Origin: a virus
Reading direction: 5' to 3' (one strand)
IMG/VR virus record: IMGVR_UViG_3300045971_000354
Span: 62,001 to 126,000 of that record
Length of the DNA stretch: 64,000 nt
Under the pieces are notes generated by a model, which ran no database searches, had not been told where the DNA came from, and saw only the letters and a list, made by a program, of their open reading frames with translations. Of this stretch, positions 40,875 through 46,460 are shown piece after piece. A program made the translations under genes and the position numbers. Numbering within the stretch: position 1 is the stretch's first letter; each line of letters starts with the position of its first letter.

Positions 40875-43544
40875 TTATTCAAAGTCAAATAAATTTCCAA
40901 AGTTATTGTCTTGCGTAGTTGAGTCCAAGTCCCATTCTAGCACCCCAATAAGATTTTCTAGTTTGTTGTTGATAATAGTAGTTTCCATTTCAGAATGCTC
41001 AAACGGAAGATCTTGAAACCACTTTGGTAAGCGTAATTCATCAACCGGATACGCAACACTGCTATATCCCAACGGATTTTCTTTCATCTTGCAAACAATA
41101 ACTTTCATACCGTCTACAATATTAACGGAGTATTTGTCTCCGTTCATACGCTTCAATGTATTCCAATTGATTGATGCTCTAACGTGCCCTGGCATATTTG
41201 CCTTGCCGTATTTCTTTTCCTTTGCTTCGTATTCTGCAATATTATTTGCGCGTTTTGGACTACCTTTTTCCCAACCTGGCCGCGCCTTAAACTCTGTTCG
41301 GAATACTGAAATCATTTCTAGAATCTCTTTTTCTTCGGTACCGTTGAGTACCTTTGTTAGAATTTCTTCAAGGAATTTCTGCATAAACTCAGGAGTATCA
41401 CTGCGCTTTAAGTCAAGCCCCATCGCTTTAATCTTACCGGGCTTATCACCGGTGTCTTGTCGTTTGCCGTCCTTATCGTAGTACAAAACCGCATATCGCT
41501 TCTTAGTAATGAATAAGCCCTTAATAGCAACTATTTCTCGTCCTGCTTTAATAACTTCGCCGCGCGTTTTTGGGCAATGAAAGTCATCTAGCATGAATTG
41601 CGGGAATGTTGCATTTACTTCGTCGGCAATCTGATCATACAGTTGGATAACGGTATCTTTATTCCACGGAATTAATCCCTTCTGAATGTCTTTCTTCAAT
41701 GTATTGTATGCGCTGAAGTAAACAGAGTCAGTATCACCGTAGATTACGCTCTTTCCTATGTAATCGTAGTCGCCTGTAATGTATTCATTTACTTTGCCGG
41801 CCATATGACGAGCAATGCGTCGCCCTGTGAGGGTGGTTGATTGACCAATTCGATTGTCGAAAAAACGACAACCAGCATTAAGAATAGCACCATACAGTGA
41901 GTTAAGGTTAATTTTCTTAACCAGCTGGCGCTTGTCCCAATACTCTTCTTCAATTTTGTTGCCGGCATTAATTGCATCCTTTAGTTTTGCTTGCATTTCT
42001 TTACGTTCTTTGTACCAACGCTTTAGCAAGCCCGGAATAATTCCTTCTTTTGCGTATGTAAAAATAGTTCCGTTTGCACTTAGCATCCACGGCTGATTAC
42101 TTTCAAATATCATTTCGAATATTTGTGCACCACTTAGTACATCGGTACTTCCATCTTCCCAATCAACAATAATATCGTGTGATTTATCTTGATCCATAAC
42201 AAATTCGTATTCGTTACTACCGAATTTCCCTTCCCACGCAGCGGCAAACGAATTTCCCTTCGCTATCTTTGCATCAATTTCTACTTTTGTGTACTCGGGA
42301 CGTAATTGTCCGACAATTGTTTCGGGTCCCATGTTTAATGCACGAATTGCAGATGGATACAGAGAGTTAATATCCATTGATCCGATCCAATCGTGGATAC
42401 CTTTCTTCGGATACGCAACATATGCACCTGCGGCCTGCGAATCTACTTCGCTATCACGACTACGCCGACTTGGAACAATAAGACCTTTTGCGTGGGCTTC
42501 GTTAATAATCGCTTGCTCAGTAACAGCAACAGCACCCATCGTTGTTTGAATCAACACAGTGTTTTCGTGCGCTACTGTATTTGCAAGGTCGATAAACTTT
42601 AGCTTACGGTCTAACTTTTCTAACAGCATTGTATCTTGTCGATTATATTCAATAAACTTTTTAAAGTCGTTGTTATATAATTGATCAAGTGTGCCTTCGT
42701 ATGCTGTCTTATGTTCCCCTAGCTCGTATTCTGCAATAGCATCGAGTCTAAAACTATGACGTTCTTCATATGTGTACTTACGATACAGTTCCAAACTATC
42801 TACGTGAACGCGACCGATCAAGTCGTATGTTACCGCAGCTTTACCGTACTTTTCGTATTCGCGTTTCTTAGGGAATTGATTCCATAAGCACAATCTGCGA
42901 GTGTCGTCTTTACTCAACGCCTTGATAACGCGATTAACAGTGTACGGCATATCGAAGCCTTCGCTGTTCCAACCACTCATCACATCTGCATCTTCAATAA
43001 GATTCAAAAACATATCAAGCATTTCTGCTTCTGTTTCGTACAAGATTGTGTTTGGAAACTCTTTAACTGCGTCCTTTGCCTGCGCCATTGTTATTGTCTT
43101 TGGAGGTACTGCTAAACATACCAGTGTTTCTAACCATTGTAGATACACTGCGATTGCAGTAATGGGCATGAATGCATCTTCAGGACTTGCGTATCCACGT
43201 TCGGGATCGAAGTCTACCTCAATGTCCCAAAAAGCTACATTTAGTTTTGGGGAGTCTTTACCTAGATAGTTTTCTTCCAATACACGAAATACTGGATTAA
43301 TGTCGCTTTCGAATAGTTTTCGATCGCCGTGTATTTTTAGTTCTTTTGCATGTTCTTTCCAACTTTTGCTTACTACTCTGCTTAGTTGGTCACCAAATAG
43401 ACTTGTATACTTTCCCTTCTTATCGGGCTGGTAAAACATATACTTTGCCGGAAACTGCTGGTATACTCGATTACCTTTTACATCGCGTTCGACGACAGAT
43501 ACGATATCTGTCTCGCGGTCCCACCGTGCATCTACATAACTCAT
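40875..43544 (-). CDS. 43: Family B DNA polymerase (gp43)
   Basis: 889 residues, close to T4 gp43 (898). Exonuclease motifs FWDIEVDF (Exo I), WNSEGFDMPY (Exo II) and YNRQDTMLLEKL (Exo III). Polymerase motifs MDINSLYPSAIRALNMG (A, near residue 390), KKINLNSLYGAILNAG (B) and IYGDTDSVYFSA (C, near 600), then KKRYAVLYYD. Both proofreading and synthesis sites look intact, with no intein or intron. The C-terminus NNFGNLFDFE resembles the clamp-binding tail of T4-like polymerases. The mRNA leader carries two hairpins that may allow autogenous control. TGGAGA precedes the ATG. Confidence 0.96.
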   Translation of the reverse strand: MSYVDARWDRETDIVSVVERDVKGNRVYQQFPAKYMFYQPDKKGKYTSLFGDQLSRVVSKSWKEHAKELKIHGDRKLFESDINPVFRVLEENYLGKDSPKLNVAFWDIEVDFDPERGYASPEDAFMPITAIAVYLQWLETLVCLAVPPKTITMAQAKDAVKEFPNTILYETEAEMLDMFLNLIEDADVMSGWNSEGFDMPYTVNRVIKALSKDDTRRLCLWNQFPKKREYEKYGKAAVTYDLIGRVHVDSLELYRKYTYEERHSFRLDAIAEYELGEHKTAYEGTLDQLYNNDFKKFIEYNRQDTMLLEKLDRKLKFIDLANTVAHENTVLIQTTMGAVAVTEQAIINEAHAKGLIVPSRRSRDSEVDSQAAGAYVAYPKKGIHDWIGSMDINSLYPSAIRALNMGPETIVGQLRPEYTKVEIDAKIAKGNSFAAAWEGKFGSNEYEFVMDQDKSHDIIVDWEDGSTDVLSGAQIFEMIFESNQPWMLSANGTIFTYAKEGIIPGLLKRWYKERKEMQAKLKDAINAGNKIEEEYWDKRQLVKKINLNSLYGAILNAGCRFFDNRIGQSTTLTGRRIARHMAGKVNEYITGDYDYIGKSVIYGDTDSVYFSAYNTLKKDIQKGLIPWNKDTVIQLYDQIADEVNATFPQFMLDDFHCPKTRGEVIKAGREIVAIKGLFITKKRYAVLYYDKDGKRQDTGDKPGKIKAMGLDLKRSDTPEFMQKFLEEILTKVLNGTEEKEILEMISVFRTEFKARPGWEKGSPKRANNIAEYEAKEKKYGKANMPGHVRASINWNTLKRMNGDKYSVNIVDGMKVIVCKMKENPLGYSSVAYPVDELRLPKWFQDLPFEHSEMETTIINNKLENLIGVLEWDLDSTTQDNNFGNLFDFE

Positions 43545-43556
43545 TATTATTCTCCA

Positions 43557-43574
43557 TACCGCTTATGGCCGGCA
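43557..43574 (-). promoter_or_regulatory. Proximal operator-like RNA hairpin in the polymerase leader
   Basis: On the mRNA: UGCCG (43570-43574), 8-base loop GCCAUAAG, CGGUA (43557-43561), a 5-bp stem with one G-U pair. The Shine-Dalgarno UGGAGA (43551-43556) follows with no gap, so protein bound here would block translation. T4 gp43 represses itself at a 5-bp stem, 8-base-loop hairpin in the same place. Confidence 0.65.
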
Positions 43575-43585
43575 ACCTTCTATAT

Positions 43586-43603
43586 AGCGAATTATGGCTC
43601 GCT
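43586..43603 (-). promoter_or_regulatory. Distal operator-like RNA hairpin in the polymerase leader
   Basis: On the mRNA: AGCGA (43599-43603), 8-base loop GCCAUAAU, UCGCU (43586-43590), a perfect 5-bp stem. The loop matches the proximal hairpin in seven of eight bases though the stems differ, which points to a shared ligand. Confidence 0.6.
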
Positions 43604-43614
43604 GAACCTTTCTC

Positions 43615-43905
43615 TTAACTATTTATTAGTCGAACTAACGCAAGTGAATCAATACTGACTAGCAGTAAGTAGTTTGCCATCATTCCTGTACTTCTTCGTG
43701 TCCACGCCGCCCACCCAAATATTGCACATTGAGTCATGAATAATGGATACAAAATTAGGAAAGGCGGATTCGGAACTGTTAAGGCCATTGTAATGCTACA
43801 CGCAATACTCATTGCCCATGCAACTATTTCAAGAGAAAATCTTAACGGGTATGCTTTGAAGTCTTCTGTAATCCACTTCCGTGTATACGTAAAGAAATCT
43901 GCCAT
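43615..43905 (-). CDS. Small integral membrane protein
   Basis: 96 residues with about three hydrophobic segments (LEIVAWAMSIACSITMAL; FLILYPLFMTQCAIFGWAAW; YLLLVSIDSLALVRLI) after an amphipathic N-terminus. No signal peptide cleavage site. Similar small membrane proteins sit near polymerase or dsbA in related aquatic phages. Its ATG shares one base with the dsbA stop. Function unknown. Confidence 0.7.
   Translation of the reverse strand: MADFFTYTRKWITEDFKAYPLRFSLEIVAWAMSIACSITMALTVPNPPFLILYPLFMTQCAIFGWAAWTRRSTGMMANYLLLVSIDSLALVRLINS
43620..43627 (-). promoter_or_regulatory. Candidate late promoter box (AATAAATA) upstream of the polymerase
   Basis: Minus-strand AATAAATA in the last codons of the preceding gene. 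The predicted start near 43614 would still include both leader hairpins. Weakly supported. Confidence 0.3.
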
Positions 43906-44174
43906 TAATCTTCTTTCTTAAAGCTGTGGCCGCTAATATCTACAATAGTTTCAAGGTCGTCAAACTCACGGAATACTTGATCCCATTGATCTTTTTGTGC
44001 AATACGAATTGCTTTCTTAATGACACTAGGCTTTACTTCCAGTTCTTCTGCTACTGCTTTGATGGTATCATTAAGACCTTCAGTAAGGTCGGCTATTTCG
44101 GTCATTACGGTTACACCTTCGGAAATGATTTGCTTAATCTTTGCCTGTTCGGGCGCACCAAATACTTTACTCAT
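43905..44174 (-). CDS. dsbA: DsbA-like double-stranded DNA-binding protein
   Basis: 89 residues. The core IADLTEGLNDTIKAVAEELE with VKPSVIKKAIRIAQKDQW matches the DsbA family of T4-like phages. T4 DsbA binds double-stranded DNA near late promoters and stimulates late transcription. The late-type promoter boxes in this window make that role plausible. ACAGGAGAATT precedes the ATG. The assignment rests on core similarity, length and context. Confidence 0.75.
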   Translation of the reverse strand: MSKVFGAPEQAKIKQIISEGVTVMTEIADLTEGLNDTIKAVAEELEVKPSVIKKAIRIAQKDQWDQVFREFDDLETIVDISGHSFKKED

Positions 44175-44243: not shown

Positions 44244-44307
44244 AAAGTGTAGTTCGCGCACCTCGACAATGCCAACTACTCTAACAGTTTATAAGGAACT
44301 ATCAGCA

Positions 44308-44901
44308 ATGATATTTATTGATAACAAATATACCCGTCGGTATAATTTAATTATTTTATCTGCTCAAAACAGAGTATTAATCGGTTACAAAGAAAAGCAT
44401 CACATTATTCCGAAATCTATCGGAGGTACTGATTCCAAAATTAACATAGTAGAATTAACGGCAAGGGAACATTTTATATGCCATCTTTTATTACGAAAAA
44501 TGGTAATCGGTAACGACAAAAGTAAAATGGCGCTTGCCGCATTTATGCTTACTACGGCATCATCTACTCAACAACGTTATAAAATAACAAATCGACGATA
44601 CGAGATTCTTAAGAAAGAATTTTCCGAAGCAAAGAAAAATAACCCCTCTCCTAAGAAAGGAAAAAAGATTACCGATCCTATTCAACTTGCTGCTATTAAG
44701 GCAGCAGTATTAAAGAGAGAAGAACGATATAAGTCAGGCGAGATGGTTAGGACAGTTGGCAAATATATAAGAACAGAAGAACATCGTACTCAACACGCAG
44801 AGGCTATAAAATCTCGACCTAATTTTACTACAAAGAATTATAAACATACTGACGCTACTAAAAAGAAAATAGGTCTAGCAAACACTAAACCTACTTCTTA
44901 A
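44308..44901 (+). CDS. Free-standing HNH homing endonuclease, opposite strand to its neighbours
   Basis: 197 residues from the ATG at 44308, chosen because AAGGA lies upstream and because the HNH paralog at 45726 begins at the equivalent point. An in-frame ATG at 44269 adds 13 unlikely residues. HNH core: KHHIIPKSIGG..SKINIVELTAREHFICHLLL. The C-terminal basic part has NUMOD3-like segments (RTEEHRTQHAEAIKSR; HTDATKKKIGLANTKP). It is inserted between dsbA and the gene at 45742 and points against the operon, typical of mobile endonuclease genes. It stops one base before the next convergent gene ends. Confidence 0.85.
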   Translation: MIFIDNKYTRRYNLIILSAQNRVLIGYKEKHHIIPKSIGGTDSKINIVELTAREHFICHLLLRKMVIGNDKSKMALAAFMLTTASSTQQRYKITNRRYEILKKEFSEAKKNNPSPKKGKKITDPIQLAAIKAAVLKREERYKSGEMVRTVGKYIRTEEHRTQHAEAIKSRPNFTTKNYKHTDATKKKIGLANTKPTS

Positions 44902-44902
44902 T

Positions 44903-45742
44903 TTATTTTTTCTTTGCTGCTAAAGTTTCGATTAAGACATTTTCCAACCAAACTTCGTAGGATTCTTTCATCTTTCTTCTTCGCAATGGGTCAACAGCTT
45001 CTTTCTGAGCAGCTTTTTGTTTCTTTTTGTAATCAGCACTTGCTTTATCTGCGGCTACTTCTTTCTTAGAAGGTTTACCTTTTTGCAACTTAGGATCATA
45101 CAACGGCCCATTCCAATCGTTAGCTTCGCCTAAGCCGCGCTTTTTCATTTCACGATCGACTACTCGATTTTGTAATGCTTGTGGGCTGTGTGGTTCTGCT
45201 GGACCATCGACATCCTTGTATATTTTGCCCTTAAGATCTAAGTTCTTAATTGTTTTGTCATCGTGGCCTTTGTTACGCTTGACAATTTCGCCAGGCTTTC
45301 CTTGAGCTCCGCCCCAACCTTGCATACCACGCTTCACTTGCTTCACGCCACGCTTGATTGTATCGCCAATTCCTTCTTCTTGACTTCCGCCCTCTGGAAG
45401 ACCACCGTGCTTTACTTTGCTCCACTTTTGATCAGATCCTTGTGGAGTCATTACCGGACCTTCTGCCACTGTGCTACGATCGCACGTATTTCTCTTGCTG
45501 CAAGTACTGCATTCACATGTTTTAGTGGCACAAGATCTACCTTCTTCGAGTTGTCTTGCTAATTCAATTTGCAAGCTTTCTGCATATTCTTTATTCTTAT
45601 GCTTTACATCGCCTTGCTTTAATGCTTTCTTCTTATCTTTATGAGCACCAGCCGCTCCACTTTTTGCTTTTGCAGCCATAACTTGCTGATTAGGATTTCT
45701 GGGTTTCAGAGAAGGAATTTCGATTTTATTTTTGTTGCTCAT
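44903..45742 (-). CDS. Lysine-rich protein of unknown function between two HNH genes
   Basis: 279 residues from the ATG at 45742 (AAAGGTG six bases upstream). A TTG eight codons earlier is a poorer choice. Very basic and low in hydrophobics, with a four-cysteine cluster CATKTCECSTCSKRNTC that could bind zinc and long Lys/Gln/Gly-rich disordered regions. The C-terminus ESYEVWLENVLIETLAAKKK is a likely helix. Similar basic disordered proteins in phages are often virion or scaffold components. Flanking by two homing genes suggests the locus is a repeated insertion target. Confidence 0.65.
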   Translation of the reverse strand: MSNKNKIEIPSLKPRNPNQQVMAAKAKSGAAGAHKDKKKALKQGDVKHKNKEYAESLQIELARQLEEGRSCATKTCECSTCSKRNTCDRSTVAEGPVMTPQGSDQKWSKVKHGGLPEGGSQEEGIGDTIKRGVKQVKRGMQGWGGAQGKPGEIVKRNKGHDDKTIKNLDLKGKIYKDVDGPAEPHSPQALQNRVVDREMKKRGLGEANDWNGPLYDPKLQKGKPSKKEVAADKASADYKKKQKAAQKEAVDPLRRRKMKESYEVWLENVLIETLAAKKK

Positions 45743-46460
45743 TTGGCACCTTTTTACAATTATCAAAGTGATATTTTATCATATTATTTAGTCCACCTTC
45801 TTTGTCACAATGCGGACAGATTACACGTTTTTGAGGACCTGCCTTTTTACCTCGCACCGGGTTGTCTGATCTCAATTTTATTTCACTCATTAATTTTTTT
45901 GTTTCGTCTGAATGTTTTTTTCCTAAATTTGGCGGATTGAATTTTTGTGTTTCTTTTCGTTTAAGCTTAGTAGCTTCTGATTGCTTGTGACCAGTTTTTC
46001 TTGCTAACTTATTTTTATTAGCTATATCCGGATCTGGATGATTTTTGCAGTTATCGAAGTGATACCGAGATAACGCATTTCTTCCACCTTCTTTGTTACA
46101 ATGCGGGCAAGATATAATGCTGTGCGGTTTTTTGTTAACGATTTTAAATCGCTCGCCGGTAAGTTGACCGACCCGGCGCCTTATCCATCCGAACGATTTG
46201 TTGTTTGATCGATTACCTGCAGGATCAAAACACATAAGATGTGCAGCGTATACTAGCTTGGGGTCGCTGGGATAGATTTTGACTAATAGTTGATGAGCTA
46301 GGAAATGCTCTTCGGCAGTTAATTTGACTAAATTTGTTTTGCAGTTAGTTCCACCTACACACCGAGGAATAATGTGATGGTTTTCGGAATACACGTTAAC
46401 TGGCAATATTCGGATACGTGCGCGATCTATGAGGAGAGTGTAGTGCTTTTTATAATTCAT
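45726..46460 (-). CDS. HNH homing endonuclease with two added CPHC zinc motifs
   Basis: 244 residues. HNH core: SENHHIIPRCVGG..CKTNLVKLTAEEHFLAHQLL, related to the HNH protein at 44308. Two copies of a C..C...GG......YHFDNCK unit follow (SCPHCNKEGG near residue 115 and CPHCDKEGG near 215), each likely a small zinc-binding DNA-recognition module. NUMOD3-like segments lie between (GHKQSEATKLKRKE; GKKHSDETKKLMSEIK). A late box and a perfect hairpin precede the ATG. It overlaps the next gene by 17 bases. Confidence 0.85.
   Translation of the reverse strand: MNYKKHYTLLIDRARIRILPVNVYSENHHIIPRCVGGTNCKTNLVKLTAEEHFLAHQLLVKIYPSDPKLVYAAHLMCFDPAGNRSNNKSFGWIRRRVGQLTGERFKIVNKKPHSIISCPHCNKEGGRNALSRYHFDNCKNHPDPDIANKNKLARKTGHKQSEATKLKRKETQKFNPPNLGKKHSDETKKLMSEIKLRSDNPVRGKKAGPQKRVICPHCDKEGGLNNMIKYHFDNCKKVPNEQQK

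Follow-up and report, generated by a model that had tools for sequence, protein, structure and literature searches.

Tandem pseudoknots before a phage DNA polymerase gene as a probable translational operator

What is the repeated structure in front of the DNA polymerase gene of an uncultured phage, and does it control the synthesis of the polymerase? To our knowledge, detailed accounts of a replicative polymerase that governs its own synthesis by way of an RNA operator are limited to T4, RB69 and a few of their kin. The window analyzed here, a stretch of 64,000 nucleotides, is part of a 143-kb uncultured virus record and carries polB on its minus strand (40875..43544), which encodes an 889-aa family B DNA polymerase of the gp43 type (Pfam DNA_pol_B, 2e-38; PHROG 262, 7e-197). 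The nearest solved chain to this PolB is that of RB69 gp43 (1clq, with 1ih7 and 1waj; 2e-70), and among its cultured kin are jumbo phages such as Sinorhizobium phage Phosso, with 49% identity, and Agrobacterium phage Atu_ph07, with 44%. The polB leader on the minus strand reads aaaGGTtc-AGCGA-GCCATAAT-TCGCT-atatagaa-GGT-TGCCG-GCCATAAG-CGGTA-TGGAGA-ataataATG. A first-pass annotation had pointed out two hairpins here, each with a 5-bp stem and an 8-nt loop, and every base that it quoted, as well as the 11-nt gap between the two, is correct for the minus-strand mRNA. In hairpin 1, AGCGA (43603-43599) and TCGCT (43590-43586) enclose the loop GCCATAAT (43598-43591); in hairpin 2, 11 nt further on, TGCCG (43574-43570) and CGGTA (43561-43557) enclose GCCATAAG (43569-43562). 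The loops are indeed equal in seven of eight bases, and the second hairpin does adjoin the ribosome-binding site: TGGAGA (43556-43551) directly follows CGGTA, which ends 1 nt before the Shine-Dalgarno GGAG, and precedes the ATG (43544-43542) by 6 nt, GGAG itself lying 7 nt before it.

The window sequence by itself gives weak evidence, and the element would not stand out from it. The folding energy of the leader is ordinary (z = -0.74 vs shuffles). Nested folding gives the site-2 stem a probability of 0.95 and the site-1 stem one of 0.007, a different hairpin being preferred at site 1. The heptamer GCCATAA occurs in the window at chance frequency, with nine copies found and 9.6 expected.

Leaders of related polB genes were collected by scans of viral contigs. 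Both units are found in 125 of 126 distinct leaders, whose polymerases are 71-83% identical, and the duplication proposed from the window is thereby established; the sole exception, L158, has neither unit. The strict pattern is present at both sites in 109 of these first 126 leaders. Twelve others have it at one site and, as judged by eye, a bulge in the stem, a loop of 9 nt or a small insertion at the other. In four the units are placed further upstream, and in one of these, L166, the first unit has a variant loop, again as judged by eye. The element is also absent from L184 and from several distant relatives. When 51 diverse leaders were aligned and 13 pairs scored for standard pairing and double changes, standard pairs filled 94.1% of the cells, compared with 73.9% after shuffling and 21-40% after sliding by 1-3 columns, and both sides had changed in 164 cells, compared with 49 +/- 9 in shuffles. 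The stems thus covary around a constant loop, GCCNNAAN, as the first-pass annotation had anticipated. In the first stem of the 51 leaders, the inner four pairs are 100% standard with 8-24 double changes each, and the outermost pair is kept in most. RNAalifold recovers both helices without being given them. On the polB tree, the commonest stem pairs changed state 17-50 times, their 5′ and 3′ bases about equally often; the second stem pair of site 2 shows 50 state changes, 50 on each side (240-row tree). At site 1, A occupies loop nucleotides 4, 6 and 7 in each of the 108 units whose loop has 8 nt; at site 2, it occupies nucleotides 6 and 7 in each of the 116 units, and nucleotides 4-5 vary. As far as sequence comparison can tell, the signal for paired stems is overwhelming, and we have hardly any doubt that the polB leader forms a paired RNA structure.

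The stems of the two hairpins are therefore real, but the units are more than hairpins, because the GCC of each loop can pair with a GGY upstream of the stem. Each of the 230 units scored has an RGY triplet 5-9 nt before the loop, and every one of these can pair with its own loop triplet, that is, loop nucleotides 1-3: the combinations are GGU/GCC (210 units), GGC/GCC (13), AGU/GCU (5) and GGU/ACC (2). The search pattern also allowed mismatched combinations such as AGU/GCC or GGU/GCU, and the 230 units contain none of them. Among more distant relatives, with about 50% identity to the Phosso polymerase, a clade has AGU/GCU at site 2, and there is also one AGC/GCU as well as a third case of GGU/ACC. 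An apparent AGC/GCC exception in L245 is a different hairpin picked up by a loose pattern. Mapped on the polB tree, the upstream A has five separate origins at site 1 and one at site 2, each together with U in the loop, so that six of six independent changes are concordant (two-sided sign p 0.03, sites pooled), a test limited by the rarity of changes in this helix.

In each unit, the GGY and the loop GCC would form a first helix, S1, of 3 bp, and the stem of variable sequence a second, S2, of 4-6 bp; the geometry is completed by an L1 of about 0-3 nt and a last loop of 5 nt that is rich in A and has two invariant A residues. In pseudoknot 1 of the window, the 5′ strand of S1 is GGU (43606..43608), S2 is made of AGCGA (43599..43603) and UCGCU (43586..43590), and the loop GCCAUAAU (43591..43598) supplies GCC as the 3′ strand of S1 and AUAAU as the A-rich L3. 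In pseudoknot 2, the corresponding parts are GGU (43575..43577), UGCCG (43570..43574) with CGGUA (43557..43561), and the loop GCCAUAAG (43562..43569). The S2 strands are assigned from the sequence and the aligned leaders, and the GGU triplets from RGY conservation and covariation. The element should accordingly be widened to 43551-43608, to take in the GGT triplets (43608-43606 and 43577-43575) that precede the two stems and are part of the structure.

S1 stops at 3 bp, the next inward pair being no better than in shuffled sequences (0.61 vs 0.56 at site 1; 0.31 vs 0.28 at site 2), and a helix of this length makes a poor hairpin alone, which favours the pseudoknot. The lack of pairing beyond 3 bp also makes it less likely that S1 begins an ordinary competing hairpin, although minimum-energy folding of the window sequence predicts such a hairpin at site 1. 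Plain tandem hairpins were rejected for pseudoknots because the upstream RGY is invariant and covarying. Since the GGY/GCC pairing is universal in the units scored, covarying and without violations, two tandem H-type pseudoknots are the best, and a very probable, reading. S1 and S2 would then form simultaneously; they could instead be alternating hairpins. The A-rich last loop (NNAAN) could lie along the groove of S1. The third S1 pair is U.G in more than 90% of the units, and loop conservation holds for a single orientation, which points to an element acting as RNA and not as DNA.

The two units keep a fixed distance. From loop to loop it is 27-30 nt in 119 leaders, and 29 nt in 80 of these, L1 and the linker trading length; the second loop lies at -31 to -16 from the start codon in the same leaders. 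Fixed spacing between the loops as against a variable distance to the ATG suggests that the two loops are read together, and would be indirect evidence for cooperative binding at the two units. In a distant group, the stem runs into the Shine-Dalgarno sequence itself (CGGAG). On the upstream side, a TAAATA motif resembling the -10 element of T4 late promoters lies at 43620..43625 on the minus strand, within the 3′ end of the upstream ORF and 11 nt upstream of the first GGT. Of 119 distinct leaders, 92 have a TAARTA whose end is 10-12 nt from the first RGY on its upstream side, the distance being exactly 11 nt in 68. Over the 143-kb record, intergenic sequence holds 35 of 122 TAAATA copies vs 6% expected, an enrichment of about five-fold; the motif lies mostly upstream of genes on the same strand and is a candidate late-type promoter motif of this record. 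Were it to act as a T4-late-like -10 element, transcription would begin some 5 nt before pseudoknot 1.

The element is tied to a single gene. A covariance model of the tandem was searched over 15 records of 119-353 kb, which are fragments, and each gave one strong match (15/15), always before polB (E 1e-12 to 1e-19; best other match 0.07); a search of the window's record with a single-unit model found no second copy. Two candidates in the record of one relative, G008, were set aside. At the weak single-unit match G008:76665 (L278, G008:C1:76665-76693; E 0.007), GTGG-GCCAAAAA-CTAC precedes a gene for a SufC-like ABC ATPase, lacks RGY at the right place and is probably a chance match, and at the weak match G008:17292 (E 0.07) there is no motif. 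In L013/L017, L053, L144 and L166, the element is separated from polB by a small ORF that overlaps polB by ATGA, and the pseudoknots precede this ORF. The element thus stays before the first cistron of the pair, as expected of an operator acting on the polB translation unit. The small ORF encodes about 40-60 aa, is cysteine-rich in these four cases and possibly occurs in L183 and L226 also; two of these ORFs had no PHROG match, and the product could be a polB-linked regulator.

The polB genes of T4, Phosso, Atu_ph07, CBB, Vibrio 2.275 and 121Q gave no covariance-model match, and conservation seems to end within the wider polB group, the element seemingly being absent from the cultured phages examined. 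Bacterial MAG contigs, marine or freshwater, yielded four PolB relatives, and none of the three that reach the gene start has the tandem. In a sister polB group (L219-L272), the place of the first unit is taken by another covarying hairpin, TCG-NNNN-(ac..tta)-NNNN-CATG, which has the stems GCTC/GAGC, GTTC/GAAC and GCCC/GGGC, and the Shine-Dalgarno-proximal unit in the sister groups is still the pseudoknot. The TCG-...-CATG hairpin may be a second RNA motif, and the proximal pseudoknot may represent the older core and the tandem a later state.

Among known systems, the gene 43 operators of T4, RB69 and RB49 are closest: they too belong to the leader of a gp43-type PolB gene, adjoin or cover the ribosome-binding site, and combine a 5-bp stem with an 8-nt loop. 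The loops of the three contain UAAC, UAAC and UAAA, with AC/AA as the key bases (PMC3014915). Only the AA is shared with the present element, where it is invariant, and UAAA, UAAG or UAAU appears in many site-1 loops. The loop GCCNNAAN differs from the T4 loop, AAUAACUC, as had been noticed at first sight, and T4 has one plain hairpin, whereas here there are two units, each with its loop paired with an upstream GGY. The element would act like a gp43 operator but misses two of its defining features, the loop sequence and the single plain hairpin. Some T4-type polymerases are reported to be without autoregulation, and according to the same review there is no evidence for a pseudoknot in gene 43 (PMC3014915).

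Pseudoknots do serve as operators elsewhere. T4 gp32 recognizes one in its own leader, and the operator of rpsO (S15) also has one; the gene 32 leader was considered in 2010 to be possibly the sole viral pseudoknot in translational autoregulation (PMC3014915). The gene 32 leaders of T4, T2 and RB69 resemble the present element in that an H-type pseudoknot, here supported by comparative evidence, lies in the leader of a T4-type replication gene, where that of gene 32 is used for autogenous repression. Gene 32 has one pseudoknot about 67 nt upstream together with UUAAA repeats, while polB here has two close to the Shine-Dalgarno sequence, 12 nt separating pseudoknot 2 from the ATG, and no such repeats. 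In rpsO, the pseudoknot likewise lies over or beside the ribosome site and is an autogenous operator, but it is single and cellular, and the gene and the sequence are unrelated. The guanidine-II (mini-ykkC) riboswitch likewise places two similar stem-loops before the ribosome site, their loops constant and their stems changing; its loops differ from those found here, where there is neither an Rfam match nor a guanidine-related gene. Rfam 15 gave no match at E<=1 in the window leader and none at the gathering score in six relatives, and no paper on tandem pseudoknots in phage leaders turned up in the literature searched.

The tandem is almost certainly a control switch on the amount of polymerase, and translational control of polB is likely. 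The two pseudoknots together would constitute a cis-acting translational operator. On binding of a trans-acting factor, the pseudoknot on the Shine-Dalgarno side, helped by the one 29 nt upstream, would block entry of the 30S subunit and lower polymerase synthesis. In the autogenous form of this mechanism, free polymerase that is not on DNA would bind the two invariant-loop sites and shut off its own mRNA, as do T4 and RB69 gp43. The polymerase is the likeliest ligand because T4 and RB69 gp43 use a hairpin of equal size at the corresponding gene, and because the element is found nowhere else in the records searched and has the loop AA in common with gp43 operators; by this analogy, we regard it as reasonably probable that the polymerase itself binds. 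Counted in favor of the whole reading is that RegA, the T4-type general repressor, was not detected in nine records by a profile that finds T4's own. Counted against it are the nearest cultured phages, which are without a model match, L158 and L184, which lack the element, a loop that is not that of T4, the T4-type polymerases reported to be without autoregulation, and the competing hairpin at site 1. As a whole, the reading of a tandem pseudoknot translational operator of polB, most likely autogenous, is favored with somewhat better than even confidence. The interpretation in the first-pass annotation survives in so far as the element is polB-specific, on the ribosome-binding site and duplicated, with a constant non-T4 loop and covarying stems; its plain hairpins do not.

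The same RNA could respond to something other than the polymerase. A new structural class that senses another signal, such as a nucleotide or another replisome component, and couples polymerase synthesis to the state of replication is a tentative and rather unlikely idea. That the operator is bound by another phage or host protein, such as a ssDNA-binding protein, a replisome regulator or a ribosomal protein, is unlikely: pseudoknots are used in just this way by the T4 gp32 and rpsO (S15) operators (PMC3014915), but a regulator of several genes should have more sites than the one before polB in each of the 15 records, and RegA was not found. The fixed distance of TAARTA invites a further explanation, in which two 5′-terminal pseudoknots stabilize the mRNA or fix its translation rate without any ligand. 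A promoter 11 nt upstream would put pseudoknot 1 a few bases from the 5′ end, and 5′ structures slow mRNA decay. A passive structure, however, needs neither invariant loop bases, nor a constant 29-nt spacing, nor a GGY/GCC pairing kept through 17-50 stem changes, and the second unit is set against the Shine-Dalgarno sequence; we consider this explanation quite unlikely. Known small riboswitches share the outline of the element, being small H-type pseudoknots with A-rich loops, beside the Shine-Dalgarno sequence and in tandem, and the invariant loop positions would fit a binding pocket. A tandem riboswitch, with each pseudoknot recognizing a small molecule, such as a nucleotide reporting DNA synthesis, and gating the ribosome site, is nevertheless improbable, given that Rfam has no match, that the one gene controlled is not metabolic and that only about 5-6 bases per unit are invariant. 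The inverted repeats do stand beside a promoter-like motif, but a transcription operator or replication origin at the DNA level is highly improbable for an element that has U.G in most S1 helices, conserves its loop in one orientation, lies 3′ of the presumed start, is tied to the ribosome site and keeps its place before the first cistron.

If the tandem pseudoknots are a translational operator read by the polymerase, the same job, autogenous control of the polymerase, may be done by a different RNA, two pseudoknots at a fixed spacing. The element is evident at well over a hundred polymerase genes of uncultured phages and lacks an Rfam match. The natural compensatory series GGU/GCC, GGC/GCC, AGU/GCU, AGC/GCU and GGU/ACC provides ready-made test RNAs, and such variants would help to ask how a polymerase distinguishes its own mRNA from DNA, a structural question for gp43.

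Upstream of polB, two ORFs of the window, 45726-46460 (minus strand) and 44269-44901 (plus strand), likely encode homing endonucleases of the HNH type; the former has a NUMOD3 motif, and the latter contains HHIIPKSIGGT-like text and has no Pfam match. Two genes upstream of polB, at 43905-44174 (minus strand), lies a gene for an 89-aa protein that matches PHROG 639, 'transcriptional regulator' (1e-8), and is kept in relatives.
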